A stretch of DNA of 64,000 bases from Granulicella sp. L46. GTDB taxonomy: Bacteria; Acidobacteriota; Terriglobia; Terriglobales; Acidobacteriaceae. Within the stretch, counting starts at the first letter, position 1, and every line of letters begins with the position of its first letter. Positions 6,252 through 24,827 of this stretch are shown one piece after another. Location of the stretch: contig NZ_LMUT01000012.1 of assembly GCF_009765785.1 (NCBI RefSeq), positions 510,403-574,402 of the forward strand, given 5' to 3'. The position numbers and the translations under genes are program-made. A model generated the notes under the pieces. That model made no database searches. It worked only from the letters and a program-made list of their open reading frames with translations, and was not told the DNA's origin.

Positions 6252-6274
6252 GCCTTTTCTCCTGTTGGTTGTCC

Positions 6275-6300: not shown

Positions 6301-6301
6301 C

Positions 6302-6914: not shown

Positions 6915-7002
6915 GGAGAGATGGCCGAGTGGCTGAAGGCGCACGCTTGGAAAGCGTGTTTACCGCAAGGTAACGTGGGTTCGAATCCCACTCTCTCCGC
7001 CA
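6915..7002 (+). tRNA. tRNA-Ser (anticodon GGA)
   Basis: An 88-nt cloverleaf with a long variable arm: acceptor GGAGAGA (6915-6921) pairs with TCTCTCC (6992-6998), followed by discriminator G and an encoded CCA (7000-7002). The anticodon stem CACGC/GCGTG encloses the loop TTGGAAA with anticodon GGA, reading UCC and UCU serine codons. The variable arm (TTTACCGCAAGGTAAC) and the T loop TTCGAATC are intact. Confidence 0.97.
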
Positions 7003-7369: not shown

Positions 7370-8893
7370 ATGAAAAATGCCAGTGTTGCGGCGCAACTCG
7401 AAGCCGTTGTTGCTCCAACCAAGACTACGATCCGGCCTCAGATAACTACGCCGAATGGAGACGAGATTCTGAGTGAGAGCGAAGCGCGGTTTCGCTGGTT
7501 GGCGGATGCTGCTCCGGTGCTGATCTGGGGGTCCGGCGTCGACAAACTGTACACCTACTTCAATAGGCCCTGGCTGGAATTCACGGGACGAGCCTTGGAC
7601 CTCGAGCTTGGAGAGGGCTGGGCAGAAGGTGTTCATCCGGAGGATTTGCGACAGTGCCTGAATACCTACACGCAATCCTTCGATCGGCGAGAGAAATTCA
7701 GGGTGGAATACCGGCTACGGAGGTACGACGGCGAGTATCGATGGATTTTGGACATCGGAGTGCCGAGGTTTGATCAGGATGATTCCTTTGTCGGTTATAT
7801 GGGGATTGCTGTCGATGTGACCGATCGCAAGTTAGTAGAGGAAACACTGCGGGGGAGCGAGGCGCGGTATCTGGAGTTGGCCGAACAGAGCCGCTCGACC
7901 CACTGGGAAGTGGACCCGCAGGGTCTTTTCATCTATGTCAGCAATGTCTCCCAGGCCACCTGGGGTTATCCCCCGGAGGAAATCATTGGCCAGATGCACT
8001 TTTACGACCTCCATCCCGAAGAAGGACGCGATGCGTTCAAGGCGGCGAACTTCGCAATCATGGAACAGAAGCAAAGGTTCCAGGACGTAGTCCACGCCGT
8101 GAAAAGAAAGGATGGCCGCCTCGCTTGGGGCTCCGTCAACGGCATCCCCGTTCTGAATGCCGACGGAACCCTGCGGTGTTATCGAGGTAGTTGCACTGAC
8201 ATCACCGAGCGCAAGCTGGCGGAAGAGGCGCTTTCCAGCGTAAGCCGGAAGCTAATCGAAGCACACGAACAGGAACGTACTCGGATTGGGAGAGAATTGC
8301 ATGACGACATCGTCCAAAGACTCGCGATGTTGGTGGTACAGCTCGACAGAATTCAACAGCATATTCCCGATCCGGCATCTGAATTCGGTAGGCAAATCGG
8401 CGATCTTAGAGGCCAAGCTTCCGAAATAACGAACGATGTTCAATCGTTGTCCCACGAATTGCACTCTTCGAAACACGAGTATCTAGGGATCGTTGGAGCG
8501 ACCAGAAATTTCTGCCGTGAGTTTGGTGAGCGTCAGAAGGTGGAGGTTGATTTTCAGAGCCATGATATTCCTGATACCTTACCAACCGACCTTTTTCTTC
8601 CATTGTTCCGAGTTTTACAAGAGGCCCTCAGTAATGCCAGCAAGCACAGTGGGGTAAGGAGCTTCGAAGTGAAACTGTTGGGGAGCCCGGAAGACATTCA
8701 GCTCACTGTCAGAGATCGCGGTGCGGGGTTTGATCCAGAAGCCGCAACGAAGTGCACCGGGCTTGGCCTCACGAGCATGAAGGAGCGTCTGAGACTCGTC
8801 GGTGGAGAACTTTCGATCAGGTCGCAACGCGAGCACGGCACTACCATCCACGCTCGTGTACCCCTCGGTCGGGATGCAATTCAAAGTGTGTGA
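7370..8893 (+). CDS. PAS-PAS sensor histidine kinase (HisKA_3 type)
   Basis: A 507-residue soluble kinase: two PAS domains (about 38-155 and 160-285, each ending in a PAC-like GYMGIAVDVTDRK or CYRGSCTDITERK), a HisKA_3 dimerisation/phosphotransfer domain (EQERTRIGRELHDDIVQRL, His near 310) and a HATPase domain (RVLQEALSNASKHS, RDRGAGFD, GLGLTSMKERL). This is the NarX/DegS class, which normally signals to LuxR-type regulators. There is no membrane segment, so it senses a cytoplasmic cue. The next gene encodes a paralogous kinase with the same catalytic core, suggesting duplication. No LuxR-type partner lies nearby. Confidence 0.92.
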   Translation: MKNASVAAQLEAVVAPTKTTIRPQITTPNGDEILSESEARFRWLADAAPVLIWGSGVDKLYTYFNRPWLEFTGRALDLELGEGWAEGVHPEDLRQCLNTYTQSFDRREKFRVEYRLRRYDGEYRWILDIGVPRFDQDDSFVGYMGIAVDVTDRKLVEETLRGSEARYLELAEQSRSTHWEVDPQGLFIYVSNVSQATWGYPPEEIIGQMHFYDLHPEEGRDAFKAANFAIMEQKQRFQDVVHAVKRKDGRLAWGSVNGIPVLNADGTLRCYRGSCTDITERKLAEEALSSVSRKLIEAHEQERTRIGRELHDDIVQRLAMLVVQLDRIQQHIPDPASEFGRQIGDLRGQASEITNDVQSLSHELHSSKHEYLGIVGATRNFCREFGERQKVEVDFQSHDIPDTLPTDLFLPLFRVLQEALSNASKHSGVRSFEVKLLGSPEDIQLTVRDRGAGFDPEAATKCTGLGLTSMKERLRLVGGELSIRSQREHGTTIHARVPLGRDAIQSV

Positions 8894-8935
8894 CTCGGTA
8901 ACTTATCTAGATTGGAAGTGTCTTTGCTTTAATCG

Positions 8936-11035
8936 GTGGCGTTTATGTTTAAAACTCTCATCATAAACATGGGGAAACGATTCTCGTCGAATTCTGGAAC
9001 GGGGCTAAGAGTTTCTCTTTGGCCGACGGCGCTGGTCGGAATCGTGGTCATCAAAGCCGTGCTTTCACTCAACGTGACGCCGGGATCTTTTCTGCTTTCT
9101 TATAGCGGGATCAGTTATTTCCTTTTACTATTTTTGGCAACAAGTTTCGCTATCCGCAATGGAATACGGAAAACCGCAGGAACGCGCGCATTCTGGATGT
9201 CTCTCGCAATTGCCTACGGCCTTTGGACGCTAGACCAGTATCTGATGCTGTACTACGAGCTTGTTCGGCACATTGCGGTGCCCGATGGTTCGATTGCTGA
9301 TCCGTTGCTATTTCTGCACATCGTACCGCTGATGGCCGCTGTGGCAAGCTTGCCACACCAGAGCAGCACTTCCGGCCGCAAGCTATACAGCACGATATTG
9401 AACTCTCTACTCTTATTGTTTTTCTGGAGCTTTCTCTATGGTTACCTGGTTTTTCCATACCAATACTTCCCAACCGCCGCCGGTTACGCCCTGCGTTTTG
9501 ACGTTCTCTACTTACTAGAGAATCTGGCTCTGTTGTTGGTTGTCGGCGTATTGACCCTGCGCGCGCAGCCTCCATGGAGGTCTATCTATCTTCATCTCCT
9601 GGGCGCCTCGACTCTATATGCGTTAAGCTCAACTGTCGCCAACCTTGCAATTGACTCGGGAGGATACATCAATGGCAAGTTGTATGGCCTGGGCCTGACC
9701 GCTTCGGTTTGCTGGTTCGTGTGGATACCGCTGCGCGCACGGCAGATAGAGGGAGAAGCAACAGCCATCCAGTCTGATAGTGGTCAGAGTTCACGAGGCT
9801 CTGCATGGGCGATGCTCGTTGTTGTGGCAGTTCCGATCCCGATTATCTGGGAACTGTTCAAACGAAATGAAAACGTCGGTCTGCCGACTTTTCGTCTGCT
9901 GGTCGCAATTATCGCGATTCTGTGTCTGGCGAGCGCTGCCTTTATAAAGGAATATCTTGCCAGACGTGAAATGGATTTCCATTTTAATTTGGCCAACGAC
10001 AGACTACGTCTTGCTATGGAAGCAGGCGCATCGGTGGGGTGGGACCTGGACGTGAAGAGCGGACGGAATGTCTGGTTCGGCGACCTGCGCATCTTCGGAA
10101 TCGATTCCGATACTTACGTAACAACCGGCTCAGAGTTCACTCGTCTCCTGCATCCGGAAGACCGGACGAGAGTCTCGGAAGCGATCGCGGATGCAAGGCA
10201 AAGCAAGAAGCCGTACGCCGCAGAATTTCGTGTCTTACAGCCAGATGGGACAGTTCGCTGGCTGGGAGCGCGAGGCAAGTTTTACTACGCCAGGAACGGC
10301 AACCCGGAGCGGATGCTTGGCGTGTCGGTAGATATCACCAAGAGCAAGTTGGCGGAAGAAGCCGTTTCCTCCATGAACCGCAGAGTGATTGAGGCAGAAG
10401 AACGGGAGCGTGACCGGATCGCGAAAGACCTTCACGAAAACATCGGTCAGCGTCTTGCTTTGTTGGCGATTGCGATCGAACAACTCAAACGTGACCTCCC
10501 CGATCAGGCCGTCGAATTTCTTGATTCTATGGACGCAGTATGGAGGAAGACCTTAGGGATATTGACCGATGTGAAAGCTTCGGCGCATGAACTGTATTCT
10601 CCAAGGCTCGAGTATCTCGGCATTGCTGCAGTGATGAAGACCTTCTGCGAAGAGTTCTCGGAGAGAAAGAGTGTTGAAATTGACTTCAGGAGCCAAGGTT
10701 TCTCCAGCCCCGTACTACCGGACGTTTCTATCTGTCTTTTCCGCGTTCTGCAAGAAGCGCTGCATAACGGGGTGATGCACAGCGGGGTGCAGAAGTTCAG
10801 TGTGAAATTGTGGGGTGAATCGGATGAGATTCGTCTTAGAGTCAGCGACGCGGGCGTTGGCTTTGATCTCGGAGCGGCGAGGGGAGGCCGTGGGCTTGGC
10901 CTGGTTAGAATCGAGCAGCGAATTAAACTGGTGGAAGGAACGTCTTGGATCGATTCACAACCAGAAAAAGGCACTACAGTCCAGGTTAGCGTGCCCATGC
11001 ATTCTGAACGCGTTTTCCTTCGTGCGGCTGGCTAG
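8936..11035 (+). CDS. Polytopic membrane PAS histidine kinase (HisKA_3 type)
   Basis: The 699-residue protein has about ten N-terminal membrane segments (residues ~20-345), a single PAS/PAC domain (about 355-475, ending MLGVSVDITKSK), and a HisKA_3-HATPase core (ERERDRIAKDLHENIGQRLA, His near 499; RVLQEALHNGVMHS; SDAGVGFD; GRGLGLVRIEQRI). The H-box has EN where the upstream kinase has DD. The catalytic part is closely related in layout to that kinase, 42 bp upstream, but the sensor is a membrane module of unknown specificity. The frame opens with GTG at 8936; ATG 8945 or 8970 are alternatives and none has a good ribosome site. Confidence 0.88.
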   Translation: MAFMFKTLIINMGKRFSSNSGTGLRVSLWPTALVGIVVIKAVLSLNVTPGSFLLSYSGISYFLLLFLATSFAIRNGIRKTAGTRAFWMSLAIAYGLWTLDQYLMLYYELVRHIAVPDGSIADPLLFLHIVPLMAAVASLPHQSSTSGRKLYSTILNSLLLLFFWSFLYGYLVFPYQYFPTAAGYALRFDVLYLLENLALLLVVGVLTLRAQPPWRSIYLHLLGASTLYALSSTVANLAIDSGGYINGKLYGLGLTASVCWFVWIPLRARQIEGEATAIQSDSGQSSRGSAWAMLVVVAVPIPIIWELFKRNENVGLPTFRLLVAIIAILCLASAAFIKEYLARREMDFHFNLANDRLRLAMEAGASVGWDLDVKSGRNVWFGDLRIFGIDSDTYVTTGSEFTRLLHPEDRTRVSEAIADARQSKKPYAAEFRVLQPDGTVRWLGARGKFYYARNGNPERMLGVSVDITKSKLAEEAVSSMNRRVIEAEERERDRIAKDLHENIGQRLALLAIAIEQLKRDLPDQAVEFLDSMDAVWRKTLGILTDVKASAHELYSPRLEYLGIAAVMKTFCEEFSERKSVEIDFRSQGFSSPVLPDVSICLFRVLQEALHNGVMHSGVQKFSVKLWGESDEIRLRVSDAGVGFDLGAARGGRGLGLVRIEQRIKLVEGTSWIDSQPEKGTTVQVSVPMHSERVFLRAAG

Positions 11036-11057
11036 ATAAGCACGAACTTTTGCCCGT

Positions 11058-12083
11058 TCAATTGAAAGAAACGGCGGAGTGCCTCGCGCGAATTCTTTCA
11101 TAGATGCGGCTTTCCTCTTCACTCTGAAAAGCGCTCAACACATACCCACACAAAAGATCGGCATCGCAGCTCCTGGCGATCTCGTCACATAGGCGTTCTA
11201 CTTCCATCGCCGCATCCGTCTTTCCCTGCTCCCACAAAACGGGAGCACATTCACCACAAAGCGCGACATGGGGGCGATCCCCGCTCGATGCTTTTCCGGC
11301 TGCGGCAATCAGATCGCCCGCGACTTTAAGAAATCGAGCCGGGTCAGGCAGATCATTCACCATGAAAGTCGAGAGCGTGTCGGCAACATCCAAAGAGACA
11401 TAGCGCGCCTGTTCAACAGCGGCGACAATATCCACGCCGTGCTGGCGCAATTTCTCTAGAAGACTCCTCCGATGCGACTCAGTCACCACCGCGATCACTG
11501 TATTGCCGGCGACCAAAGCGGCTTCGATGAAACGAGTAAAGCCAATTACGAAGGCTGCGTCATCCGCATAGAATTCAACCTCGTGATTGCGCGTGGCATC
11601 CACCCTTTCCAATGCTGGTGGTTGCAAAGGCTCATCGGTACGGTCGAGAGTTTTCGTCTCAAACGAGGGGATGAAAACGTGACCCGATAGTCCGCTGCTG
11701 ACAAACTGCACGCCTTGAAGAACCGCTTCCACAGCAACCAGCAACTCGTTGCCGGCGTGCACTTTAACCACGTAGCCCAGGGCCCCCGTGGCGAGAGCTT
11801 CCTGTACTACTTCGGCAGAAGACTCTTGGCTAACGAAGAGGATTTTGCTCTCCGGGAACAGCTTGCGGATTCGTCGAGCCGCATCGATTCCATTCAGTGA
11901 AGGAAGCCCGATGTCGAGCAAAATCAACTCCGGCCGGAGTTCTTCGGCTTTCTTGACTGCTTCTAATCCGTCCGCGACCTCGCAGATCTGAAATCCTGGC
12001 TCCTTGCTCAGCGTCGAACAAATGAAGCGCCGAAATGGCTCATAATCTTCGACTACGAGAACCCGGCGCAATGACATTTCCAA
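11058..12083 (-). CDS. Response regulator with MEDS output domain
   Basis: Residues 5-125 form a receiver domain (VLVVEDYEPFRRF, phospho-acceptor D57 in LILLDIGLPSLNG, conserved Lys in GYVVKVHAG). After a linker, about 165-330 match the MEDS (DcmR-type sensory) fold: NHEVEFYADDAAFVIGF, GNTVIAVVTESHRRSL, GECAPVLW and a final LCDEIA...LLCGY segment. No helix-turn-helix is present, although the receiver resembles those of LuxR-type regulators. The gene converges on the two HisKA_3 kinases (22 bp gap), so it is their probable partner. Output would have to act through ligand or protein binding rather than DNA. ATG 12077 is an alternative start. Confidence 0.85.
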   Translation of the reverse strand: MEMSLRRVLVVEDYEPFRRFICSTLSKEPGFQICEVADGLEAVKKAEELRPELILLDIGLPSLNGIDAARRIRKLFPESKILFVSQESSAEVVQEALATGALGYVVKVHAGNELLVAVEAVLQGVQFVSSGLSGHVFIPSFETKTLDRTDEPLQPPALERVDATRNHEVEFYADDAAFVIGFTRFIEAALVAGNTVIAVVTESHRRSLLEKLRQHGVDIVAAVEQARYVSLDVADTLSTFMVNDLPDPARFLKVAGDLIAAAGKASSGDRPHVALCGECAPVLWEQGKTDAAMEVERLCDEIARSCDADLLCGYVLSAFQSEEESRIYERIRARHSAVSFN

Positions 12084-12497: not shown

Positions 12498-15065
12498 CTA
12501 GAACTCGTAGTGCATGGAGAGGGTGACGAGGTTGGCGTGGAAGTTTCTGGGGGCTGTTAGGCCGGAGGGAGGTTCGGTGAGGCCGGTGGGATAGGGTGCG
12601 AGGGAGGGGGAGTTGCAGGGGACTACCACCGCGGTTGGCGAGGTGGTGGTGCTGCAGAGGGGAGCGCCGGAGGGGCCGCCTTCACCGTAGCCGTAGTAGT
12701 TGTAGTCGGCTCGGAAGATCCAGCCGGGGTGAACCGTCCATGCAACGTGTACGAAGGGCGATTGATAGGCGGACTGTAAGGAACCATTCACCTGGCGTGC
12801 GTCGTTGAAGAACTGGTTGCCGCTGACCGCGCTGATGGTGTAGCCGAGGCTACCCTGGATGGTCCTGGTCGGATTCACGGTGAGCGAGGCAGAGGCGTAC
12901 TGGGTGGGTGCATCCATGAAGTCCTTGGTTGGACCCCAGTCGGAGAGGACGGTCGTCGATCCGCGGACGAAGACTCCGGGACAGATGGCAGGGGTTCCGG
13001 CGGGCGTAAGGACGGCTGTACCGGGCAGCGTGGGGGTGGCTCCGTTGAGGTAGCAGATGTTGGTGGAGGTGTAGACATCCGAGTAGGCGTAGCTGAAGTC
13101 GAAGCTGTAGCGCTCGCTCGGCGCCAGGTCCGTGGAGATGCTGGCCACGCGGCTGTGATCCACATGCTGGAGGGGGCCGTCGATGGGCGGGACACCGGTG
13201 TTGTTGGTGTTGTTGTGGTGCTCGGTGTCGAGGTAGGAGGTGGCGATCGACGCCCAGGTTTTGGGTTTGTAGGTCGAGTGCACGCGATAGACCTGGGTCT
13301 GGCGCGCGCCTACCGGGGTGAAGGCATTGTCGGCGTAAAAGGCCTCGAAGGTGCCGTTGATGTTCCAGTGATCGGTTGGGCGAAGAGCGATGTTGACGAT
13401 GCCGCCGTTTTGTTCGATGTTGATGTTGGTGGTCGGCGAGGTGAGCACGGAGGGGGTTCCGGCGTAGGCTGAGATCTTTTGGCCGATGAACCGGGTGCCG
13501 TAGCGATAGGTGACCGAGATCATGGCACGCGGCGTGACATCCCAGGTAACCGTTGCGTTATTGGTGAGGATCCTTTGCCCGAAGTAGTTTGGCAGCGGCA
13601 GTCCGTTGGGAGCCTGGCCGACGATCGCGACCACGCCTGGAGTCAGTGGACCGGCGTAGTTGATGGTCTCGTTGTGCGCCGTCGCGGGCGTGCTCTCAGA
13701 GACGCCGCGGAACGTGCCCGTACCGGGGATGCGGACATTGGAGAAGTCGAACTGCTCCGAGAAGCTGAACTTCTTGGCGAACTGCCAGGTCGCACCCACA
13801 TCTGCGCCTACGTTCTGACGCCTTGCTGTCCCTGCTCCCGTGTAGCTCTGGGTGCGGATGATGCCATTCAGGCCCTGGAAGTTCTCCTGGTAGCTGGGCA
13901 TATTCGTATTCGCCGCGGTGTAGCGGAAGATTCCATTGGCGGCGAGATTGTGGATGCTGGAGGATTGGAAGCGCAGCATCTCGGTCGGGTAAATGCTCCG
14001 CGTCGGCTGATAGCGAGAGTAGTTGGAGATGACGCTGCAGGCTGGATCCACCACCGGCAGGCCGGCGGTGCCCGAGGCTGACGTCAGGATAACGCCTGGC
14101 GTCGCGATGCTGTTCGCGTTGCAGTTGCTCGCAGCGTACGGTGTCTGGCTATCCCAGTTGCCCAGCGATACCGGCAGGCCGTTCGCCTCCTGCACCGTGT
14201 ATTGATTGGGGTTGAGGATGAAGTAGGAGTCATTCTTGTAATGCGTGATCTGCTCCTCGAACGTGATCATGGTCTGCTGCAGCGGCTTCCAATCGACCGC
14301 GCCAAGGAAATCATCCGTGCTGTTGCGCTCCATCTCCTGGAACAGCATGCTGGTTTTGGCTGTTTCGTAGCCGCCGCCGATGCTCCTTGGACCCTGGAAG
14401 ATGTTCTGCGAGTAGCCGACACGGAAGGTCAGCTTGGATAGAGGGAAGATGGTGAGGTTGGTGTCGGTCATCCTGCGGACGGTGTTGAACAGCTCCGGGG
14501 ACTGGAGAACCTGGGGCCAGGCGTAGTTTCCAAGCGCTCCGCCCACGCCGATCGGGATGCTCTGCCCTCCCGGGATGTTGGGATTGCCGAACAGATCGTA
14601 ATCGAAGTACTGGCGGTCGCGACGGAACAGGCCGGAGAACTCGTAGACCTTGCCCTTCGAGAAGTCGAGCTTGACGACATTGATCGGATCGCCGCCGAAG
14701 CCGTTGCTGTACCCCGTCAGGCTATCCAGCAGCGGATGCTTGATGCCCGGAACCGAGCGCAGCGTGATGGTTTGACCCAGCACCCGCGGTCCGGATTGGA
14801 TGTTGACCAGCGTGTCGTACATCGAACCGCTGCCGGTGATGCCAACGATGTGTCCGCCCAGGTCCACCGTGTTATGGACAACGAAGCCGTCCTGCACAAC
14901 GGGCTTGGCGGGCAGAGCGGCGTTGACAGGAGCTGCGGTTGCAGGAGCTGCGTCCTGGGCGGCCGCGAAGCCGGTCATCAGCAGTAGGGCGACGCCTACG
15001 GCACCGGCGACCCGATGGGTCATGCTGGGGTGCGCTTTGGGCAGCCGCGTATCGTTTGTCTTCAT
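12498..15065 (-). CDS. MtrB/PioB-like outer membrane beta-barrel protein
   Basis: An 856-residue exported protein: signal peptide near the N terminus (VAGAVGVALLLMTGFAAAQ) and then many short amphipathic strands with Tyr/Asn/Thr-rich loops, ending in an outer membrane C-terminal strand (VTLSMHYEF, terminal Phe). The length and the barrel pattern fit the MtrB/PioB/DmsF porins that hold a decaheme cytochrome in the outer membrane; the gene follows such a cytochrome by 114 bp on the same strand. The CxxC motif seen in Shewanella MtrB is absent; the few cysteines lie in loops. I start at ATG 15065 (or the adjacent ATG 15068), with GAGG upstream; the frame stays open to 15170. The family call leans on the neighbour. 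Confidence 0.72.
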   Translation of the reverse strand: MKTNDTRLPKAHPSMTHRVAGAVGVALLLMTGFAAAQDAAPATAAPVNAALPAKPVVQDGFVVHNTVDLGGHIVGITGSGSMYDTLVNIQSGPRVLGQTITLRSVPGIKHPLLDSLTGYSNGFGGDPINVVKLDFSKGKVYEFSGLFRRDRQYFDYDLFGNPNIPGGQSIPIGVGGALGNYAWPQVLQSPELFNTVRRMTDTNLTIFPLSKLTFRVGYSQNIFQGPRSIGGGYETAKTSMLFQEMERNSTDDFLGAVDWKPLQQTMITFEEQITHYKNDSYFILNPNQYTVQEANGLPVSLGNWDSQTPYAASNCNANSIATPGVILTSASGTAGLPVVDPACSVISNYSRYQPTRSIYPTEMLRFQSSSIHNLAANGIFRYTAANTNMPSYQENFQGLNGIIRTQSYTGAGTARRQNVGADVGATWQFAKKFSFSEQFDFSNVRIPGTGTFRGVSESTPATAHNETINYAGPLTPGVVAIVGQAPNGLPLPNYFGQRILTNNATVTWDVTPRAMISVTYRYGTRFIGQKISAYAGTPSVLTSPTTNINIEQNGGIVNIALRPTDHWNINGTFEAFYADNAFTPVGARQTQVYRVHSTYKPKTWASIATSYLDTEHHNNTNNTGVPPIDGPLQHVDHSRVASISTDLAPSERYSFDFSYAYSDVYTSTNICYLNGATPTLPGTAVLTPAGTPAICPGVFVRGSTTVLSDWGPTKDFMDAPTQYASASLTVNPTRTIQGSLGYTISAVSGNQFFNDARQVNGSLQSAYQSPFVHVAWTVHPGWIFRADYNYYGYGEGGPSGAPLCSTTTSPTAVVVPCNSPSLAPYPTGLTEPPSGLTAPRNFHANLVTLSMHYEF

Positions 15066-15179
15066 CATCTCAAGCCTCACTTGACCTAAACCTTGCTTCT
15101 GTAAGCCCGTTATCCGGGCGTGCTGCTGAATCTGGACCCAGCCGTCCTGTTGCTGCCGGACGGCAACCACGTATCGCCG

Positions 15180-16124
15180 CTACTTTTTCAGGTAGGGATC
15201 CACGTTCGATCCGTGGATCATCACGTGGCAGTCGATACAGGGAGACAACTCTGCCGATCCCGAACCCATCCCGTGGACGGTGTTTGCGGCAACCGGACTA
15301 TGGCACTGGTTGCACAGCTGGTTGATGTTCGGCACATTCAACAAGCGGGCGTTTTGCGATCCGTGGGGCGTATGGCAGGCGATGCAGCCTTCTCCCCTCA
15401 CCGCGGCGTGCTCGTAGATGAACGGTCCGCGCGTCTCGGTGTGGCACTTGGTGCAGATCGCGTTCTGATCTGCCGTTATTTTGAGATTGGCGGGCTGGAA
15501 CGTCCCGTGCACGTTGTGGCAGTCGCTGCAGGAGATCAAGCCCTCGTTCACCTTGTGGTGGAACGGCATCGCGAACGCCGGCTTGATGCTGGTGTGGCAG
15601 CTGTAGCAGAGCGTCGGCTGCGTCGCCACTAACAGCGGCGTGTCCTCGACCGACTTGTGGATGCTGTGGCAGCTCAGGCAGTTCACCCCGGCCTTGGCAT
15701 GCGGCGAGCGCAGGAAGTTCGGGTGCGTGTTTGCGTGGCAGCCCAGGCAGGTCTTGTCCACCTCGGACGGCGTCAGCTTGTTGAAGCGCACGATCTTGGT
15801 CACATCCCCGCCACCCTCTACGTGCGCCTGGCCTGGTCCGTGGCAGCTCTCGCAGCTCGCGCCCGCTCCACCATGCTCGAGCGCCAGCTTGGCATGGGGA
15901 TTGTCCACCATGCTGTCCGCGTTCTTCTGGTGGCATGTCGCACACGTCTCGCTGCCTACATACCCAGGCGCCGGGGTCGCTTCCGCCGCCGTCGTCGCCT
16001 GCTTCAAGGTCTGCGTCTGGGTCTGCGTCTGCGCGGCCGCCATCCCCGCGCCCCACATCGTCATCACCCCAACCACTGCGATCAGAAGAAAATACTTCGT
16101 TGTCTTGCGGGGCATCTGTCCCAT
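15180..16124 (-). CDS. DmsE/MtrA-like decaheme c-type cytochrome
   Basis: A 314-residue periplasmic protein with a signal peptide (YFLLIAVVGVMTMWGAGMAAA) and exactly ten CxxCH heme sites: CATCH, CESCH, CLGCH, CLSCH, CYSCH, CSDCH, CTKCH, CIACH, CNQCH and CIDCH. Size and heme number match MtrA, PioA and DmsE, the electron-carrying plug of outer membrane porin-cytochrome complexes. It heads a two-gene operon with the large barrel protein. ATG 16124 is chosen because GAGGTG lies 6 bp before it; a GTG at 16133 is possible. A GTGAC-N4-ATCAC site lies about 112 bp upstream. Direction of electron flow (metal reduction or Fe(II) oxidation) cannot be read from the sequence. Confidence 0.92.
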   Translation of the reverse strand: MGQMPRKTTKYFLLIAVVGVMTMWGAGMAAAQTQTQTQTLKQATTAAEATPAPGYVGSETCATCHQKNADSMVDNPHAKLALEHGGAGASCESCHGPGQAHVEGGGDVTKIVRFNKLTPSEVDKTCLGCHANTHPNFLRSPHAKAGVNCLSCHSIHKSVEDTPLLVATQPTLCYSCHTSIKPAFAMPFHHKVNEGLISCSDCHNVHGTFQPANLKITADQNAICTKCHTETRGPFIYEHAAVRGEGCIACHTPHGSQNARLLNVPNINQLCNQCHSPVAANTVHGMGSGSAELSPCIDCHVMIHGSNVDPYLKK

Positions 16125-16229
16125 GTAAAACACCTCTATTGGCGCGTTAAGTTTGTTGTTTCCATCTACTGGTTGAAGTCGGCCACACCATCAACATCGC
16201 AACCATAGTCTTGCCCCCAGCCGCATACG

Positions 16230-16243
16230 GTGACCTTCATCAC
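16230..16243. promoter_or_regulatory. CRP/FNR-type site 1 (cytochrome promoter)
   Basis: GTGACCTTCATCAC, a GTGA-N6-TCAC dyad about 112 bp before the cytochrome start codon (site centre to ATG). It fits the GTGAY-N4-ATCAC consensus shared by five other sites nearby. Confidence 0.6.
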
Positions 16244-16385
16244 ACGGATGACGATAAGGAATCACTCCCTCTACGCCATGCTTCGAGACGGGGACGCAAT
16301 CTGGTGAAAATGAGCCAGTTACTGGATTCCCGATCTAAATGGAATGGGGGCGATATGCGGTGAAGCAGTTCGGTAAACGAATCTT

Positions 16386-16399
16386 GTGATCCAGATCAC
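16386..16399. promoter_or_regulatory. CRP/FNR-type site 2
   Basis: GTGATCCAGATCAC, a perfect dyad GTGAT-N4-ATCAC. It lies about 268 bp before the cytochrome gene and 550 bp before the regulator gene, so the promoter it serves is unclear. Confidence 0.55.
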
Positions 16400-16618
16400 C
16401 GCGTCATGTTCAGGCTTGGCATTTTATGGTGATGCGGGTTCATCTGAGCGACCCGAATTCACTGGAGGCTGCATGCCACTGCAGTTTCGGCGAGGAAGAG
16501 CGATGAGAGTGTCGGCAGGCCCTGAAGCTCAAATCAAGATCCTGTGCCGATCGAATCGCCTTGCGCCATTTGAAGCTTCACGCAGAGACGAAATCATGAG
16601 CCTTGGCGAAGAAAGATC

Positions 16619-16771
16619 TTACCGGGGGAGCTGGGCAGAGCAGAGGGTGGTCGCGAGGTTGGCAACGAACAGGACGAGGAAGGCGACAAGGATTACAACG
16701 ACACCGCCGACGGTCAGCCGTTCCCAGAGATCTGAACTATCGCGTGCTAGCAACTCCCGTATACCTGTCAT
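16619..16771 (-). CDS. Candidate small single-span membrane protein
   Basis: A 50-residue frame starting at ATG 16771 with GAGGA 8 bp before it. It has a charged N terminus (RELLARDSSDLWERL) and one strong hydrophobic segment (VGGVVVILVAFLVLFVANL). The layout is loosely like a Flp-type pilin or a small respiratory-complex subunit, but no family is recognised. It lies between the cytochrome and the fnr-like gene, 48 bp from CRP/FNR-type site 3, in divergent orientation to the regulator. It may be a chance frame. Confidence 0.35.
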   Translation of the reverse strand: MTGIRELLARDSSDLWERLTVGGVVVILVAFLVLFVANLATTLCSAQLPR

Positions 16772-16818
16772 CACTCTTGTCCTCATGAGCAACTTTACAG
16801 CCCTCACCAATCATTGCA

Positions 16819-16832
16819 GTGACCAAGATCAC
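16819..16832. promoter_or_regulatory. CRP/FNR-type site 3 (regulator promoter)
   Basis: GTGACCAAGATCAC, about 117 bp before the start of the FNR/CRP-type gene and 48 bp before the divergent small frame. It would allow autoregulation. Confidence 0.58.
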
Positions 16833-16942
16833 AGGCCGACTCTTTGCCCTTCGCCGACGCAGAGATGTTGCTCTTCGCTAACACAGAGACGGATCGCATC
16901 CACAAGGATTTTCCCATTCGCATTTCAAGAGAGAAGGTTTGC

Positions 16943-17656
16943 ATGACGTATCCCCACTCACACATGACCACGGGCTGCAAGAACTGTTCGGACCGTTCGC
17001 TGCGAATTATGTGCGACCTTTCCGGGCAGGCGCGCGTGGACTTTGAGGCCCTCGGCATGCAGATGAAGCTGCCCAAACGCGCGATCATCTTTCAGGAAGA
17101 TGACGTCTGCGATGCGGCGACGATTGTCTGCATGGGCCAGGTGAAGTTGTCCTGCACTTCGCGTGAGGGCAAGACACACATCCTTAAGATTGCGGTCCCG
17201 GGCGACGTGCTTGGAATGGGCGCAGCGATCTCCGGGGCGCACTTCGAGGTGACGGCGGAGACGATCGAGCCGTGCGTGGTGAAGAAGATTCGGCGCAGCG
17301 AGCTGCTGGCGTTTCTGGAGAAGTATGGGCAGGCGAGCATGCTCGCGGCTAAGGCACTGTCTGAGGAGTACAAGTCGGCGTTCTTCGATGCGCGGCGGCT
17401 GGCGCTGTCAGGATCTACGGCGGGCCGGCTGGCTGGCGTTCTGCTGGACTGGGGACGAGCTGCAGCGGGATGCAATGGAACCGATATGCGGTTCACGATG
17501 GCGTTGACGCATGAGGAGCTGGCGAACCTGGCAGGCACGTCGCGAGAGACGGTCACGCGCGCGCTGGGGAAGTTTCAGAAGGAAGGGTTGATCGAGATTC
17601 ATGGCTCGTCGTTTCGCGTGGTTTCACCGACGGGCCTGGAGACGTTGTGCTCTTAG
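16943..17656 (+). CDS. FNR/CRP-family redox-type transcriptional regulator
   Basis: A 237-residue CRP/FNR protein: cyclic-nucleotide-binding-like beta roll (about 35-150), long dimer helix and a C-terminal winged helix (LTHEELANLAGTSRETVTRALGKFQ). The N terminus carries C12-x2-C15-x8-C24, and C111 lies in EPCVVKK at the position of FNR Cys122, so an iron-sulfur cluster is plausible; C56, C63 and C71 are extra. The recognition helix SRETVTR matches CRP (R180, E181, R185), predicting GTGA half-sites, rather than the E..SR of FNR. ATG 16943 has AGAGAAGG upstream; the frame is open from 16844. Six matching sites occur between 16.2 and 24.9 kb. Confidence 0.9.
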   Translation: MTYPHSHMTTGCKNCSDRSLRIMCDLSGQARVDFEALGMQMKLPKRAIIFQEDDVCDAATIVCMGQVKLSCTSREGKTHILKIAVPGDVLGMGAAISGAHFEVTAETIEPCVVKKIRRSELLAFLEKYGQASMLAAKALSEEYKSAFFDARRLALSGSTAGRLAGVLLDWGRAAAGCNGTDMRFTMALTHEELANLAGTSRETVTRALGKFQKEGLIEIHGSSFRVVSPTGLETLCS

Positions 17657-17709
17657 TACGACAGAAGCTTTCTCATAATCGGCTCATAAGTCCTTCATAA
17701 AACCTGTTT

Positions 17710-17723
17710 GTGACTTTTATCAC
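17710..17723. promoter_or_regulatory. CRP/FNR-type site 4 (stress protein promoter)
   Basis: GTGACTTTTATCAC, preceded by T and followed by A so that it reads TGTGA-N6-TCACA, the full CRP-like dyad. It lies about 160 bp before the universal stress protein gene in an otherwise empty 220-bp gap. Confidence 0.6.
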
Positions 17724-17876
17724 AGCTATCGACTCTCAGAGCGCATTGAATCAGGCGCAACGCAGCTTTCAAGATGGCCCGAATGACTGGACGGTCGATG
17801 TGCAGGCATCAGAGCTCTTTTCCGAGACCGACGGTGCGCGCGCGAGACTCGAACGCTGAGTGAGGAGTCATGGGCT

Positions 17877-18821
17877 ATGAAACAGATATCGGGTAAGACA
17901 AGCTCACCATTCAGGCGAGTTCTATTTGCGACGAAGTGCTCGGCGGATTATGAGGGCGCCCTTCAGGCAACATTTAATTTTTGTCAGAAAAACAAAGCCA
18001 GCCTGCGCATTCTGCATGTATCGAAGACGAATGCTTCGCCACGTGGAGGGAGCAACGCATCGACGGATCAGAGTGCGGCATTGATCCTTCGGCAGATGAA
18101 GGAACGGGCGATAGGGCTGGGGCTCAGCTGCACCAGCCAGCTTGAAACGGGAGATCCGGCAGAGAAGATTCTGCAGGCGATCGAGGAGTACCAGGCGGAC
18201 CTTTTGATTCTGGGAACCAGTGAGCTGCGCGGATCGAAGCGCGGAGCCTTCGGTCCCACCGCTGAAGAAGTCATGCGTGCGTCGAGCTGCCCCATCATGA
18301 CGGTTGGTCCGGTGGCCGCAGGCCTTATTCCGCAGCAGGCGTTTGACGGGCCAGTGGTATTTGCGACCGATTTCCACTCGAGGACACGGCATGCGGTTCA
18401 AACGGCGGTTTGCTATTGCAAGGGGCTCGACCTGCAGCTGCATTGCCTGCATGTACTTCCGCGCTCGCTACAATCCAGCCACGACAATACGCTGCCGGAG
18501 ATCCTGACTTCTGCGCTGAAACATCTGGTCGCAACCAGTCCCGTGGCGATCGAGAAGCTGGTCTGCCGCGTCACGTATGGCAGCGAGATATCCAATTCGG
18601 TGGTTGATTACAGCCGGCAGCAGGGCGCAAGTTCGATTTTTCTCGGAGTTCGCCGCGATAGCATCTTCTCTCTGGACGATCCGTTGCCAATTGTCTTCCG
18701 CATCATTACCGAGGCGCCGTGCCCCGTGGTCACGATTCTTTGTGACGCCGAGGCTGATCCGGAGTCGACGAGCCATCCTGCACCGCCGAAGTCGGCCGTG
18801 CCGCCGTCATTTCTTCAGTAA
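17877..18821 (+). CDS. Tandem universal stress protein
   Basis: A 314-residue cytoplasmic protein made of two Usp domains. The first (about 12-145) starts with RRVLFATKCSADYEGAL and ends with the strand SSCPIMTVGP; the second (about 160-300) starts with GPVVFATDFHSRTRHAV and ends with APCPVVTILCD. The first domain has a nucleotide-loop-like GTSELRGSKRGAFG; the second lacks a clear G-x2-G-x9-G motif. Tandem Usp proteins are often induced by low oxygen or stasis. A CRP/FNR-type site lies upstream and the fnr-like gene precedes it by 220 bp, which fits a hypoxia-linked role. Confidence 0.9.
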   Translation: MKQISGKTSSPFRRVLFATKCSADYEGALQATFNFCQKNKASLRILHVSKTNASPRGGSNASTDQSAALILRQMKERAIGLGLSCTSQLETGDPAEKILQAIEEYQADLLILGTSELRGSKRGAFGPTAEEVMRASSCPIMTVGPVAAGLIPQQAFDGPVVFATDFHSRTRHAVQTAVCYCKGLDLQLHCLHVLPRSLQSSHDNTLPEILTSALKHLVATSPVAIEKLVCRVTYGSEISNSVVDYSRQQGASSIFLGVRRDSIFSLDDPLPIVFRIITEAPCPVVTILCDAEADPESTSHPAPPKSAVPPSFLQ

Positions 18822-18877
18822 GCTGACCGCCCGAGTAGACCGCGAGCGAGCGCGCTCTACTTGCGGTTGAGGTGTTT

Positions 18878-20035
18878 CTAGTGGACCGCTGGCTCGTAGT
18901 GGCAGAAGGGGTCGCTGGCCAGCGCATCGCCGGTGGCGGCGAAGGCGCGAGCTCGGGAGCCGCCGCAGAGGGCGCGGTACTCGCAGTAACCGCATTTCCC
19001 CTTGAACAGGTTTGGATTGTGCAGTGCCTGGAACATGGGGGCGTTGCGGTAGACGTCCTGCAGTTGATCCTGACGGACGTTGCCGATGGTGAGCGGGAGG
19101 AAGCCGGCGGGGCAGATGTCTCCCTGGTTGGAGATGAACATGATGCCGTGGCCGTCGCGAATGCCGAAGCCGCGGTAAACGGGCGTGCGCTCGATCTCGG
19201 CGGCAACCATGCCGGCCTGGCGCATGCGGTTGAGCGCGACGCGGCGATAGGACGGTGCCTCGGTGGTCGCCATGGCGAAGGGTGCAATCTTCGACTGATC
19301 GTAGATCCAGTTCATTAGCTGCTCGCCGCGCTCGCTCGAAATGGGCTGCAGAACTTTGCCGCGGCCGACTTCGATGAGGAAGAAGAGGCTCCAGCGCATG
19401 ACGGGGAAGGACGAAGTTAGCAGCTCGTAGATTGCGGGAATGTCGTCGACCGTTTCCTGGGAGACCAGCGTGTTGATCTGAATGGGAACGCCGAGGCTGG
19501 CCGCGGCTTTGGCAGCGGCGATGGTCCAGTCGAAGCAGCCTTCGACGCCGCGAACGGCCTCATGGCGAGCGGCGTTGGAGCCATCGAGACTGAGGCCGAA
19601 GCTGTCGACGCCGTGGGCTTTCAGCTTGGTCATTACTTCGAGCGTGAGATCGGTGGTGGCGCTGGGCGTGATGGAGACGTTGATGCCGAGGGAGCGTGCC
19701 TCGTCGATGAGTTCGAAGAGATCCTTGCGGCGCAGCGGGTCGCCGCCGGTGAAGACCAGGTGCGGCGTGGGGTGGTTGAAGGCTGCGATTTGGTGCAGCA
19801 GGTTCTTCCCTTCCTCGGTGGTGAGCTCGTTGGGGTGGGGCGTGGAGACTGCCTCGGCGCGGCAGTGGCGGCACGCAAGGCCGCACGCCTGCGTCATCTC
19901 CCAATAGACCAGCATGGGCTGATCCGAATAGCTGTGGGTGGAGGAGTGCTGCGGGTGCGTGGACGGGTGGCCATGACGGGCGGGAGTGGGAATGGGAATG
20001 GAACGAATATCTTTGATCGAGGTTGGGGACGACAT
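18878..20035 (-). CDS. Radical SAM/SPASM protein, AhbD/NirJ-like
   Basis: The 385-residue protein has the radical SAM cluster C51-x3-C55-x2-C58 in QACGLACRHCRAEA; the HCRAEA ending is characteristic of heme and heme d1 enzymes (NirJ, AhbC/AhbD) and relatives. Further radical SAM features follow (FTGGDPLRRKD, GLSLDGSNAARHE), and a C-terminal SPASM region supplies cysteines (GDICPAGF, CGYCEYRALCGG, PFCHYEP) for auxiliary clusters. The protoporphyrinogen oxidase gene lies 12 bp upstream, so they form one operon, supporting a role in heme synthesis or modification. A related family often found beside other functions (TIGR04053-like) is an alternative. The substrate is not proven by sequence. Confidence 0.85.
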   Translation of the reverse strand: MSSPTSIKDIRSIPIPTPARHGHPSTHPQHSSTHSYSDQPMLVYWEMTQACGLACRHCRAEAVSTPHPNELTTEEGKNLLHQIAAFNHPTPHLVFTGGDPLRRKDLFELIDEARSLGINVSITPSATTDLTLEVMTKLKAHGVDSFGLSLDGSNAARHEAVRGVEGCFDWTIAAAKAAASLGVPIQINTLVSQETVDDIPAIYELLTSSFPVMRWSLFFLIEVGRGKVLQPISSERGEQLMNWIYDQSKIAPFAMATTEAPSYRRVALNRMRQAGMVAAEIERTPVYRGFGIRDGHGIMFISNQGDICPAGFLPLTIGNVRQDQLQDVYRNAPMFQALHNPNLFKGKCGYCEYRALCGGSRARAFAATGDALASDPFCHYEPAVH

Positions 20036-20047
20036 TGGGTGGATCTC

Positions 20048-21487
20048 CTAGGTGGCAACGAAAGCAGGCGCTGCGTGGGAGATCGCAGGGTTTGAAGAAG
20101 TTTGGCGCGGGACGATCTTTGCGGCAGTGTCGACGCCGCTCTGGATGCAGTCGGGGATGCCCGAGCCGCGGTAGGCCGCGCCGGCGAGGTAGAGGCCGGG
20201 ATGCGCGGATACGAGCTGATCGATTTCCTTGATGAGCGCGCCGTGGCCGACGTTGTATTGCGGGTTCGATTTCGTCCAGCGGTAGGCGCGGGCGAGCACA
20301 GGCGTTGCGGTGATACCCATGATGTCGCGGAGTTCGTTGCGCGCGATGTCGATGAGGGTAGCTTCATCTTGCTCGGCGAGGTCTTCCGCGAAGGCGCCCC
20401 CGATGAAGACGCGCATGAGGACGAAGTCGTCGGGTGCGCGATGGCTGAACTTGGTCGATGACCAGGAGCAGGCGTTAATCTTGCGGCCTTCGGCGGCGGG
20501 CACGATGAAGCCGAAACCGTTGAGGTCGCAGGTGATTTCGCTGCGGCGGAAGGCGAGCGAGACTGTGGAGGTCGAGACGTAACGGATGCGACGCAGCTTT
20601 TCGGCGAGAGCGGGAGTGAGCTGCTGCAGTATCTCGGCGGTTACGTAGGCAGGCGTGGTGAAGACGACGTTGTCCGCGATCAGCGAGGTTCCGTCGGCCA
20701 GGCTGATCCTGTACTGGCCGCCGGCCGCCGCTACGGATTGCACGCGGGTGTTGAGCTTGACCTGCTGCGGGTTGAGGCGCGCGGCGATGGCGTTGGGCAG
20801 TTGCTGCAGGCCGCCGGAGAGCGTGGTGAACATGGACGGACGCGGACCTGTGGTCAGCTGGGCTGCTTGAGCCTTTTTGCGTTTCATCATTCCTAGCACC
20901 AGGCTGCGATGAGTCTTTTCCATGTCGGTAAACATGGGGAAGGTGCTGCGCAGGCTGAGGGCTTCGGGGTCGCCAGCGTGGATGCCGGCCATCAGCGGGC
21001 CAGCGATTTTCGCGAGCAGCTCAGAGCCCATGCGGCGGCGGACGAAGCTGCCCAGGCTTTCGTCGGCGACGGTGGTGTTGCGGCCGATGAAGATCTCAAG
21101 GCCCATGCGCAGCTTGCCGGGCCAGGAGATTAGCTCCGAGCGCAGGATGGGAAGGATCATCGTCGGCGCCATGAGCATCATGCCCTCGGGCATGGGGTGG
21201 AGCTTGCCCTTGCTCAAGACGTAGGTGGAGGGAGTCGCGGTATGGTTGGAGCCGATGAGCTGATCGCCGAGGCCTAGCTCGCGGCAGAGGTCGAGCGCCG
21301 CGCGCTTTTGGGTGAGGAACGAATCGGGACCACCTTCGATGAGGAAGCCCTCGCCGGCGTAGGTGACGATTTTTCCGCCGAGGTGGTCGGAGGCCTCGAT
21401 CAGCAGATAGTCGGCTTCAGATTTTTGAAGGGCGTAGGCCGCCGCGAGGCCAGAGATCCCACCACCGATGACGATAGTTTTTGGCAT
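20048..21487 (-). CDS. hemG: Protoporphyrinogen oxidase, HemG/HemY flavoprotein
   Basis: A 479-residue FAD enzyme oxidising protoporphyrinogen IX (or coproporphyrinogen III) late in heme synthesis. The N terminus carries the dinucleotide-binding motif VIGGGISGLAAAYALQ, then EASDHLGGKI and the family motif EGGPDSFLTQK. A GIHAGDPEALSLRSTFP segment and a C-terminal FAD contact (PGLYLAGAAYRGSGIPDCI) are typical. ATG 21487 is used; a GTG lies one codon upstream. The radical SAM gene follows by 12 bp. A CRP/FNR-type site lies about 128 bp before the start codon, linking heme supply to the neighbouring decaheme cytochrome. Confidence 0.92.
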   Translation of the reverse strand: MPKTIVIGGGISGLAAAYALQKSEADYLLIEASDHLGGKIVTYAGEGFLIEGGPDSFLTQKRAALDLCRELGLGDQLIGSNHTATPSTYVLSKGKLHPMPEGMMLMAPTMILPILRSELISWPGKLRMGLEIFIGRNTTVADESLGSFVRRRMGSELLAKIAGPLMAGIHAGDPEALSLRSTFPMFTDMEKTHRSLVLGMMKRKKAQAAQLTTGPRPSMFTTLSGGLQQLPNAIAARLNPQQVKLNTRVQSVAAAGGQYRISLADGTSLIADNVVFTTPAYVTAEILQQLTPALAEKLRRIRYVSTSTVSLAFRRSEITCDLNGFGFIVPAAEGRKINACSWSSTKFSHRAPDDFVLMRVFIGGAFAEDLAEQDEATLIDIARNELRDIMGITATPVLARAYRWTKSNPQYNVGHGALIKEIDQLVSAHPGLYLAGAAYRGSGIPDCIQSGVDTAAKIVPRQTSSNPAISHAAPAFVAT

Positions 21488-21807
21488 CACGCTGTCAGCT
21501 TTCGGTCAGCATTGCTACGCATTGTTACCCCTGGGAGAGGGCTCCTTGTTTGAGAGCCCGCGAGTTCGTCATCGCCCTTAAGGTTAGCGGCGGTTGAACG
21601 GTCGCACCGTGACTTGAATCACAATGCTGTTGCGGCGAGGATGCACTATCGACGGAAATTCGCCGCGATATTGCGAAACCGCCGCTTGATTCGACCTTAA
21701 ACTCATTGGCTGTGAGGGTCAAGGAAGGGATCACACAACGACGCAGCAGGAGCTCGATGGCGACTGCTGCGTTCGTTGGAAGCTGCTTTTCTGGGAGGTT
21801 TCAGTTG
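21488..21807. other. Upstream region of the hemG operon
   Basis: This 320-bp gap lies between hemG and the 3' end of the CoA-transferase gene, both on the minus strand. It holds CRP/FNR-type site 5. A minus-strand frame inside it (21525-21734) has no domain and is taken as chance. No terminator with a T-run was noticed. Confidence 0.5.
21609..21622. promoter_or_regulatory. CRP/FNR-type site 5 (hemG promoter)
   Basis: GTGACTTGAATCAC, followed by A, centred about 128 bp before the hemG start codon. It fits the shared GTGAY-N4-ATCAC pattern. Confidence 0.6.
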
Positions 21808-23507: not shown

Positions 23508-24827
23508 CTAGCGGGTGTAAGCCAGGGACTCTTCCGATGGAGCTCCATAAGTATAAGAATCAGGAAGCTTCCTTTGCTCGTAGCCGGTATAAATTTGCCG
23601 GGGGCGGGCGATTTTCTGCGCCGGATCGTTGATCAGCTCCTGCCATTGGGCCAGCCAGCCCACTGCACGCGGAATGGCGAACAGCACGGTAAACATCTGG
23701 GGCTCGAGGCCCATGGCCTCATAGATGATGCCGGAGTAGAAATCGACGTTAGGATACAGCTTGCGCGAGACGAAATAGTCGTCGGTGAGGGCGATCCGCT
23801 CCAGCTCCATGGCAAGATCGATCTTCTTGTTCCGGCCAGTAACCTCAAAGACTTCTTCTGCCGTCCGTTTGATGATGCGAGCGCGCGGGTCGTAGTTCTT
23901 GTACACGCGATGCCCAAAACCCATCAGCTTGTGCTTACCCTCTTTCACTCCCCTGATAAATTCAGGAATGTTTTCCTGGCTACCGATCTTGTCCAGCATC
24001 TTGAGTACTTCTTCATTGGCGCCGCCGTGCAGCGGGCCAGCCAGGGCGGCGGCCGCGCCGGCGATCGACAGGAACGGGTCCGCTTCCGAACTGCCTACCG
24101 CGCGCATCGCGTTGGTCGAACAGTTCTGCTCGTGGTCGATATGCAGAATGAACAGCACATCGAGGGCGCGCGCCAGCACCGGGTGCTTCAGGTGTTCGAG
24201 CGGGCTGCGGTCCCACAGCATGTGCATGAAGTTTTCCGCGTAGCCTAGCTTCGGCTCCGGAGAGATGTAATCGAGACCCTTGCTATGACGGTATCCATAG
24301 GCAGCGATGATGGGAATCTTCCCGATGATTCGGCGGATGCAGTGCATCTGCACCTCGGAATTGCGCACGTCTTTAGCGTCGGGATAGAAGGTGGAGAGCG
24401 CGGCCAGCGTGCTGACCAGCATGCCCATGGGGTGGGCGTCGTAGCGGAAGCCTTCCATGAACTTTTTGATGTTTTCGAAGATGCCCATGTGGATACGCAG
24501 GGCGGCCAGCCACTCAGTCTCCTGCTCAGGATCGGGGAGCTCGCCGTGGATGACGAGGTAGGCTACCTGCGGGAAGGTGCAGTGCTCGGCCAGGTCGGCG
24601 ATGTCATAGCCGCGGTAGCGCAGAATTCCCTTGTCGCCATCGATGTAGGTGATCTTGCTCTCGCAGGAGGCGGTGTTCATGAAGGCAGGATCGTAGGACA
24701 TCATCCCGAAGTCATCGGGAGCAACCTTGATCTTGCGCAGATCCATCGCGCGAATCGTGTCGTGCGTAACAGGAAACGTGTATTGCTCGCCGGTCCGGTT
24801 GTCGGTGACGGTGACGGTGTTCTCCAT
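23508..24827 (-). CDS. gltA: Citrate synthase
   Basis: A 439-residue type II citrate synthase condensing acetyl-CoA with oxaloacetate. Active-site segments are intact: LHIDHEQNCSTNAMR, PLHGGANEEVLKML and GFGHRVYKNYDPRA. ATG 24827 is used, with GGGAG 7 bases before it; the open frame extends to 24914 without a better start. A CRP/FNR-type site is centred about 60 bp before the start, a promoter-proximal position. The CoA-transferase gene follows by 158 bp on the same strand and fumarase is divergent, so three carbon-cycle genes are grouped here. Confidence 0.96.
   Translation of the reverse strand: MENTVTVTDNRTGEQYTFPVTHDTIRAMDLRKIKVAPDDFGMMSYDPAFMNTASCESKITYIDGDKGILRYRGYDIADLAEHCTFPQVAYLVIHGELPDPEQETEWLAALRIHMGIFENIKKFMEGFRYDAHPMGMLVSTLAALSTFYPDAKDVRNSEVQMHCIRRIIGKIPIIAAYGYRHSKGLDYISPEPKLGYAENFMHMLWDRSPLEHLKHPVLARALDVLFILHIDHEQNCSTNAMRAVGSSEADPFLSIAGAAAALAGPLHGGANEEVLKMLDKIGSQENIPEFIRGVKEGKHKLMGFGHRVYKNYDPRARIIKRTAEEVFEVTGRNKKIDLAMELERIALTDDYFVSRKLYPNVDFYSGIIYEAMGLEPQMFTVLFAIPRAVGWLAQWQELINDPAQKIARPRQIYTGYEQRKLPDSYTYGAPSEESLAYTR

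Follow-up and report, generated by a model that had tools for sequence, protein, structure and literature searches.

A 64,000-nucleotide stretch of Granulicella sp. L46 (contig NZ_LMUT01000012.1, positions 510,403 to 574,402; hereafter the window) carries two adjacent genes, one for an exported decahaem c-type cytochrome and one for a large outer-membrane beta-barrel (Table 1). The two genes likely encode an MtrAB-type electron conduit, which would form the outer end of a low-oxygen, outward-directed ImcH-MtrAB chain lacking MtrC. More specifically, electrons would pass from quinol to an ImcH-type quinol dehydrogenase and then to a monohaem periplasmic cytochrome, both encoded on another contig of this genome (C37), and from there to the decahaem cytochrome (MtrA), which would be held inside the barrel (MtrB) and would carry them across the outer membrane in the manner of an insulated wire. 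The final acceptor would lie outside the cell, such as Fe(III) or humic matter, to be reached without MtrC, and a four-cysteine CRP/FNR-family regulator would turn the conduit on at low oxygen through TGTGA-N6-TCACA sites. Protein families, the barrel fold, the conserved pairing of the two genes, the linkage to an ImcH-type gene and the conserved palindrome are computed here; the formation of the complex, the flow of electrons, its direction and the acceptor are what we infer.

The cytochrome gene encodes a protein of 314 amino acids that is predicted to be exported and contains 10 CxxCH motifs, compared to 0.09 on average and 2 at most after 5000 residue shuffles. It is the sole CxxCH-bearing open reading frame (ORF) among the selected non-overlapping window ORFs of at least 100 amino acids. 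The protein belongs to TIGR03508 (DmsE family decahaem cytochrome), which it matches at E 1.4e-77 with 260.6 bits against a cut-off of 192.2. In a PDB sequence search, chain A of the Mtr complex 6r2q aligns to residues 20-307 at E 2.7e-38 (the row of the search table for this chain carries an unrelated molecule name), and all ten CxxCH motifs are invariant across 39 aligned cytochromes, the window protein among them. The original prediction, made from the letters of the window, described an exported ten-CxxCH cytochrome followed by a large barrel, and both minus-strand genes are indeed found there.

The barrel gene lies directly downstream of the cytochrome gene on the same strand and more likely starts at ATG 15065 (855 amino acids, with a signal-like N-terminus) than at GTG 15170. 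An AlphaFold2 model computed from an alignment of 46 barrel sequences (predicted local distance difference test, pLDDT, 80.7, with several loops below 50; predicted template modelling score, pTM, 0.75) matches MtrB (6r2q_B) with Z 25.1 and a root-mean-square deviation of 3.6 over 553 of 649 residues, and the next chain follows at Z 16.2. MtrB is also the top row of the Foldseek search (E 8.2e-13). As modelled, the window barrel has the MtrB fold, which is its best match by a wide margin. At the level of sequence, the aligned part is 12% identical to 6r2q_B, a PDB sequence search with the window barrel gives no significant match, and a profile of the 46 barrel sequences retrieves two PDB matches only, both at chance level. 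Because the modelled fold matches MtrB and the window barrel reaches none of the families PF11854 (MtrB_PioB), OMP_b-brl and NF041027 (GSU2204) at E 0.01, we place it in a divergent MtrB lineage on the strength of the model. A separate lineage had been suspected from the start, and sequence models are weak or silent in both the window protein and its 46 relatives. Shewanella-type MtrB is marked by an N-terminal CxxC; no CxxC occurs anywhere in the window barrel, as predicted, and the protein is thus not of the Shewanella type by this mark.

The fold comparison also decides whether the barrel could be a TonB-dependent receptor or another transporter whose cytochrome neighbourhood is incidental, a match that the original prediction had named as speaking against itself. 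After MtrB, TonB-dependent receptors make up most of Foldseek rows 2 to 50, and general barrel families give weak matches (OMP_b-brl_3 at E 0.68 for the window protein; OMP_b-brl at E 0.01 in 4/46 relatives, best E 4.5e-5). Nevertheless, MtrB leads by the margin given above, no plug-domain family is found in the window protein or in its 46 relatives, which in this search reach OMP_b-brl and PF11854 alone at E 0.01, no receptor family is found in the window protein, and the pairing with a decahaem gene described below holds wherever there is room for it. We consider an incidental transporter scarcely credible and reject the receptor identity.

Conservation of the pair was assessed in the best 80 of 150 barrel relatives (the named loci). 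Wherever a named locus includes 1.3 kb or more of upstream sequence (75 loci), a decahaem gene lies immediately before the barrel gene on the same strand. Across Acidobacteriota, a single barrel query matched at least 43 of 396 genomes and a barrel profile at least 68 of 297, these tallies being lower bounds with two or three candidates scored per genome. The decahaem family matches 155 of the 297 genomes at E 1e-20 and is over its cut-off in 124. A phylum sample was chosen by the barrel profile alone, without regard to the cytochrome, and its 91 rows were merged to 75 barrel places. In this sample, at least 46 of the 75 places have a decahaem gene directly upstream on the same strand among the decahaem matches listed, which extend down to about E 1e-52.

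The predicted inner-membrane partner was found by following the conduit onto C37, in line with the suggestion to look elsewhere in the genome for CymA-like genes. This contig opens on the final 98 bp of the barrel gene, followed by a monohaem cytochrome gene and then by the ImcH-type gene. ImcH is described by three N-terminal transmembrane segments, an adjacent CX3CH and 5-9 CX2CH (PMC6295460). The C37 protein carries three hydrophobic segments, one CX3CH (CGTACH) and five CX2CH, and thus fits this description by motif and hydropathy marks, judged without direct alignment to Geobacter ImcH. Among 65 homologues, CX3CH is present in all 65, exactly five CX2CH in 60 and at least five in 62; by a simple hydropathy count, 30 have three segments and 35 have two. 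The NrfH model TIGR03153 scores 56 bits against a cut-off of 134.2, which places the protein outside CymA/NrfH. Where the named loci extend 5.5 kb or more downstream (51 loci), a monohaem gene is found in 45, an ImcH-type gene in 41 and a gene for an 11-haem protein in 7. An ImcH-type gene is therefore the usual neighbour of the pair in these loci, contrary to the available text of a 2018 survey, which counted 19 ImcH homologues in Acidobacteria and reported mtrAB never adjoining imcH (PMC6295460).

In two relatives of the same genus (L127 13956-15437 and L128 4307-5758), the gene for the 11-haem protein separates the monohaem genes from the ImcH-type gene; the genome studied here has no match to this protein. 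Because the L127 protein has a C-terminal hydrophobic segment and the 11-haem proteins resemble, by eye, the c-haem part of a CbcL-like protein (from the distant locus L058) without the b domain, its reading as a surface cytochrome was set aside. Four further ORFs with 7 or 8 CxxCH occur in this genome (L068, L069 and L067, that is C19, C15 and C37 of G000).

The link between the window and C37 involves a repeat. The start of C37 is identical to window 12596..12499 and the end of another contig, C9, to window 16148..16051, each over 98 bp. This pattern is probably that of a two-copy repeat, window 12499-16148, collapsed in the assembly; the ends alone are seen twice and the middle is deduced. 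The repeat would run from 24 bp before the cytochrome ATG to the barrel stop codon, and at its edge, 12,499, the window probably contains a mis-join or a recombination point; true recombination between the copies would leave the same pattern as a mis-join. Given the apparent collapse, what lies to the left of 12,499 in the window is probably not the sequence that truly adjoins this copy. The right side of the window belongs with C37 because of the gene order in three loci of the same genus: L127 and L128 read HemG, TIGR04053, universal stress protein (Usp), regulator, cytochrome, barrel, monohaem genes, 11-haem gene, ImcH-type gene and a further C37 gene, and L131 has an equal order from HemG to the ImcH-type gene with the 11-haem gene absent. 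The left side, with a response regulator and sensor kinases, probably flanks the other copy. This response regulator is downstream of the barrel in none of the 80 named loci (51 with at least 5.5 kb there), and the 27 other genomes in the genus sample hold no relative of it at E 1e-40, so that the flanks of the second copy (C9 next to C5-left) are unplaced by synteny. A second decahaem locus is also seen in G397, G403, G407, G408 and G413, with a weaker second match in G402 (28-genome genus sample, 13 matching). Gene conversion behind the two copies is unsupported: other two-locus genomes show about 65-92% identity between matching pieces.

Upstream of the cytochrome gene, the regions before the two copies have shared parts, including a CRP/FNR-type palindrome (TGTGACGAAGGTCACA on C9, TGTGATGAAGGTCACC in the window), and differ elsewhere. 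Of 92 stretches preceding ten-haem ORFs, 74 contain the site TGTGA-N6-TCACA with at most one mismatch, where base shuffles expect 1.0; these stretches come from barrel loci, with the window and the C9 copy included, and are not independent since exact duplicates only were removed. The FNR-type site TTGAT-N4-ATCAA, also with at most one mismatch, was found in none of the 92 and was rejected in favour of TGTGA-N6-TCACA. Within the window, GTGA-N6-TCAC occurs six times compared to 0.8 expected, a number that none of 100 shuffles reached. All six sites fall within 16230-24893 and may define a small regulon: two precede the cytochrome gene, and the regulator, Usp, HemG and citrate synthase genes are each preceded by one.

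A candidate reader of these sites is encoded by the divergent CRP/FNR-family gene next to the cytochrome gene, a divergent relative of which is found in 37 of the 68 named loci with at least 3.5 kb upstream. Cysteines 17, 20, 29 and 68 of the regulator (numbering of window:16928-17653) are each conserved in 54 or 55 of the 57 rows of an alignment, and a recognition helix of its kind (RETVTR) is likewise kept; the alignment includes duplicate loci and rows away from the cytochrome. By the CRP rule, such a helix presumably suits TGTGA half-sites. The regulator scores 50.4 bits with PRK11161, under the cut-off of 228. Taken from sequence, control by low oxygen is a prediction, as are the sensing by the regulator and its role as the protein that reads the site.

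The original prediction found no surface cytochrome in the window, and this extends to the genome: none is present among the window ORFs, and OmcA/MtrC (TIGR03507, cut-off 209.3 bits) is over its cut-off in none of 18 family genomes, with a best score of 18.8 bits in this one, which excludes an MtrCAB set by this measure. The partner does exist further afield. A distant acidobacterial locus, L058, holds a CbcL-like layout, OmcA/MtrC, an ImcH-type gene, MtrA and a barrel in one run (1022-11848), and the OmcA/MtrC genes of L058 (E 5.6e-151) and L059 (E 7.7e-126), both over the cut-off, accompany barrels of the same lineage.

Without MtrC, the conduit might work in the inward direction, with extracellular Fe(II) or reduced minerals supplying electrons that would reach the periplasm, the mode of action put forward for MtoAB and PioAB. 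The gene content, C37 included, equals the Mto set of decahaem cytochrome, porin, monohaem cytochrome and NapC-family protein (PMC12016527), PioA/MtoA homologues in Acidobacteriia amount to 27 hits (PMC10654088), and the RuBisCO large-subunit family is over its cut-off in two of seven genomes searched, though not in the genome studied here. The two matches are G273 C92 and G397 C10 (same genus), and the family also takes in RuBisCO-like proteins. Inward flow is nonetheless unlikely in our estimate. Outward flow is favoured because the partner is of the ImcH type, CRP/FNR-type sites lie upstream of the cytochrome gene and this genome has no RuBisCO match; ImcH has been implicated solely in quinol oxidation (PMC6295460). 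The distant loci L058 and L059, which adjoin OmcA/MtrC genes and in the case of L058 also a CbcL-like protein, likewise argue against inward flow.

Alternatively, the conduit could serve an extracellular terminal reductase rather than minerals, as DmsEF serves DmsAB, given that the best family of the cytochrome is named DmsE and that no surface cytochrome was found for contact with minerals. We regard this as improbable. TIGR03508 takes in MtrA-type proteins too, because 6r2q_A is a close match of the cytochrome. Two weaker points go the same way: no reductase is among the selected window genes that were scanned, with no reductase search made in the named loci or the whole genome, and the partner genes sought around the named loci, and found there, code for cytochromes.

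A number of results weigh against an ImcH-linked MtrAB conduit. The comparison of the barrel with an MtrB/PioB model, which the original prediction had proposed as a check, went against it: PF11854 does not match the window barrel at E up to 1 and is reached at E 0.01 by only 4/46 barrel relatives (best E 3.7e-4). Pfam and NCBIfam give nothing significant for the window barrel, the best being NF041027 at E 0.28, followed by the OMP_b-brl_3 match mentioned above. A model of the cytochrome alone is too poor for use (pLDDT 63.4, pTM 0.45). In the phylum sample, 29 of the 75 barrel places lack a decahaem gene directly upstream among the matches listed; three of these have one nearby in another arrangement and 26 have none among the matches listed to about E 1e-52. 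One of the 26 is a 24-residue barrel tail on C37, in four (G202, G197, G075 and G009:C40) a ten-haem ORF does directly precede the barrel, and in G273 a decahaem gene sits at the facing contig end. Related loci in the pairing counts are not independent samples. Within the available stretch, 10/51 named loci show no ImcH-type gene, and in 6/51 the monohaem, ImcH-type and 11-haem genes are all missing. Here, the ImcH-type gene sits on a separate contig, tied to the window by the 98-bp overlap and synteny. Finally, the fourth cysteine of the regulator, Cys68, is in a different place from that of E. coli FNR, and the regulator is perhaps a distinct sensor type.

Compared to known systems, the ImcH-MtrAB arrangement shares with Shewanella MtrAB(C) (6r2q, from S. 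baltica) a decahaem cytochrome aligned over nearly its full length, the barrel fold and adjacent genes. It differs in having no MtrC above the cut-off, a barrel of 12% identity without CxxC, and an ImcH-type instead of a CymA-type partner. The original prediction favoured the two-part Pio/Mto type. This holds in so far as the window and C37 together share their four protein kinds with MtoAB-MtoD-CymA of Sideroxydans and resemble mtoABD-cymA (PMC12016527); it does not hold for the membrane protein, which has the ImcH signature, nor for the CRP/FNR-type sites upstream, and the direction is probably outward. With respect to Pio, the monohaem cytochrome and ImcH-type genes come here after the barrel end, on C37. 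Geobacter GSU2203/GSU2204 likewise combines a decahaem cytochrome with a partner, and NF041027 gives weak matches in 21/46 barrel relatives (best E 1.4e-6); the window proteins are well below both curated cut-offs (213.9 bits against 325 for the cytochrome with NF041028, the model of the GSU2203/GSU2204 families; 9.9 against 350 for the barrel with NF041027) and thus belong to neither family.

A conduit in such an organism was expected to be noteworthy in itself. The gene pair is already known: Eichorst 2018 lists mtrA/mtrB homologues in Granulicella, Silvibacterium, Terracidiphilus and others (PMC5900883), Lipson 2013 proposes iron reduction and reports, from peat, decahaem cytochromes of Solibacter and Terriglobus (PMC3669403), and Baker 2022 describes MtrCAB in Bryobacterales and other Acidobacteriia (PMC8805035). 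Because Silvibacterium bohemicum S15 and Terracidiphilus gabretensis S55, both listed by Eichorst 2018 (PMC5900883), hold a locus of this kind in our analysis, the genes listed there are very likely the same as these. The Group 5 MtrCAB of Acidobacteriia/Bryobacterales (PMC8805035) similarly places MtrAB in the phylum and resembles the distant loci L058 and L059; it differs by its MtrC, of which this genome has none above the cut-off. The linkage to imcH and a monohaem gene, the palindrome and the duplicated cassette were not met with in the part of the open literature searched, supplements lying outside it, and are apparently undescribed.

Acidic soils and peat are rich in Acidobacteria, the electron sinks that rival methane production there include Fe(III) and humic matter, and the Acidobacteriaceae of these habitats are usually called aerobes. 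We tentatively propose, with rather less than even confidence, that many Acidobacteriaceae of acidic soil and peat carry a full low-oxygen outward chain in one cluster, comprising ImcH, at least one monohaem carrier and MtrAB without a surface cytochrome, the outermost MtrA haem meeting the acceptor. Besides its own gene, the regulator would govern haem synthesis and citrate synthase. In the genome studied here the chain would be duplicated as a bare two-gene cassette, its copies being kept identical. The regulated ImcH-MtrAB cluster would provide a concrete gene set for the iron reduction that a review (PMC8790237) records as reported for Acidobacterium and Acidicapsa and that a peat metagenome has led others to suspect (PMC3669403). 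This result runs counter to the 2018 survey, in whose available text mtrAB does not occur next to imcH (PMC6295460). Furthermore, markers such as PF11854 miss the barrel and will lead to under-counts of the conduit.

Table 1. Features of the window and of contig C37 referred to in the text.
Feature	Sequence	Coordinates	Strand	Evidence or remark
Two PAS sensor kinases	window	7370-11032		
Response regulator with MEDS domain	window	11061-12068		
Apparent 3,650-bp repeat with just the two conduit genes, two copies inferred	window	12499..16148		contig-end overlaps
MtrB-like outer-membrane beta-barrel, signal peptide, no CxxC	window	12498..15065	-	AlphaFold2 model, fold match 6r2q_B
MtrA/DmsE-family decahaem c-type cytochrome, signal peptide, 10 CxxCH	window	15180..16124	-	TIGR03508 and 6r2q_A
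CRP/FNR-type palindrome GGTGACCTTCATCACA upstream of cytochrome	window	16229..16244		C9 copy TGTGACGAAGGTCACA at like place
Second CRP/FNR-type palindrome TGTGATCCAGATCACC upstream of cytochrome	window	16385..16400		
Palindrome upstream of regulator gene	window	16818..16833		
Divergent CRP/FNR-family regulator	window	16943..17656	+	Pfam cNMP_binding and HTH_Crp_2; start set by comparison with relatives
Palindrome TGTGACTTTTATCACA upstream of Usp gene	window	17709..17724		
Universal stress protein	window	17877..18821	+	PF00582 E 2.8e-28; syntenic, kept in L127, L128, L131
TIGR04053 radical SAM/SPASM protein	window	18878..20035	-	457.3 bits, cut-off 395; syntenic neighbour
Protoporphyrinogen oxidase HemG	window	20048..21490	-	TIGR00562 331.6 bits, cut-off 97.85
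Palindrome upstream of HemG gene	window	21609-21622		
Citrate synthase	window	23508..24827	-	TIGR01798 528.3 bits, cut-off 485.15
Palindrome upstream of citrate synthase gene	window	24880-24893		
Monohaem class I cytochrome	C37	149-463		Cytochrome_CBB3 E 1.7e-15
ImcH-type membrane quinol dehydrogenase (predicted)	C37	about 1329-2780		PF03264 NapC/NirT E 4.2e-9

Among the neighbouring genes, the TIGR04053 protein has as its second-best family TIGR04545 (AhbD haem b synthase), which it matches with 290 bits, under the cut-off of 500.

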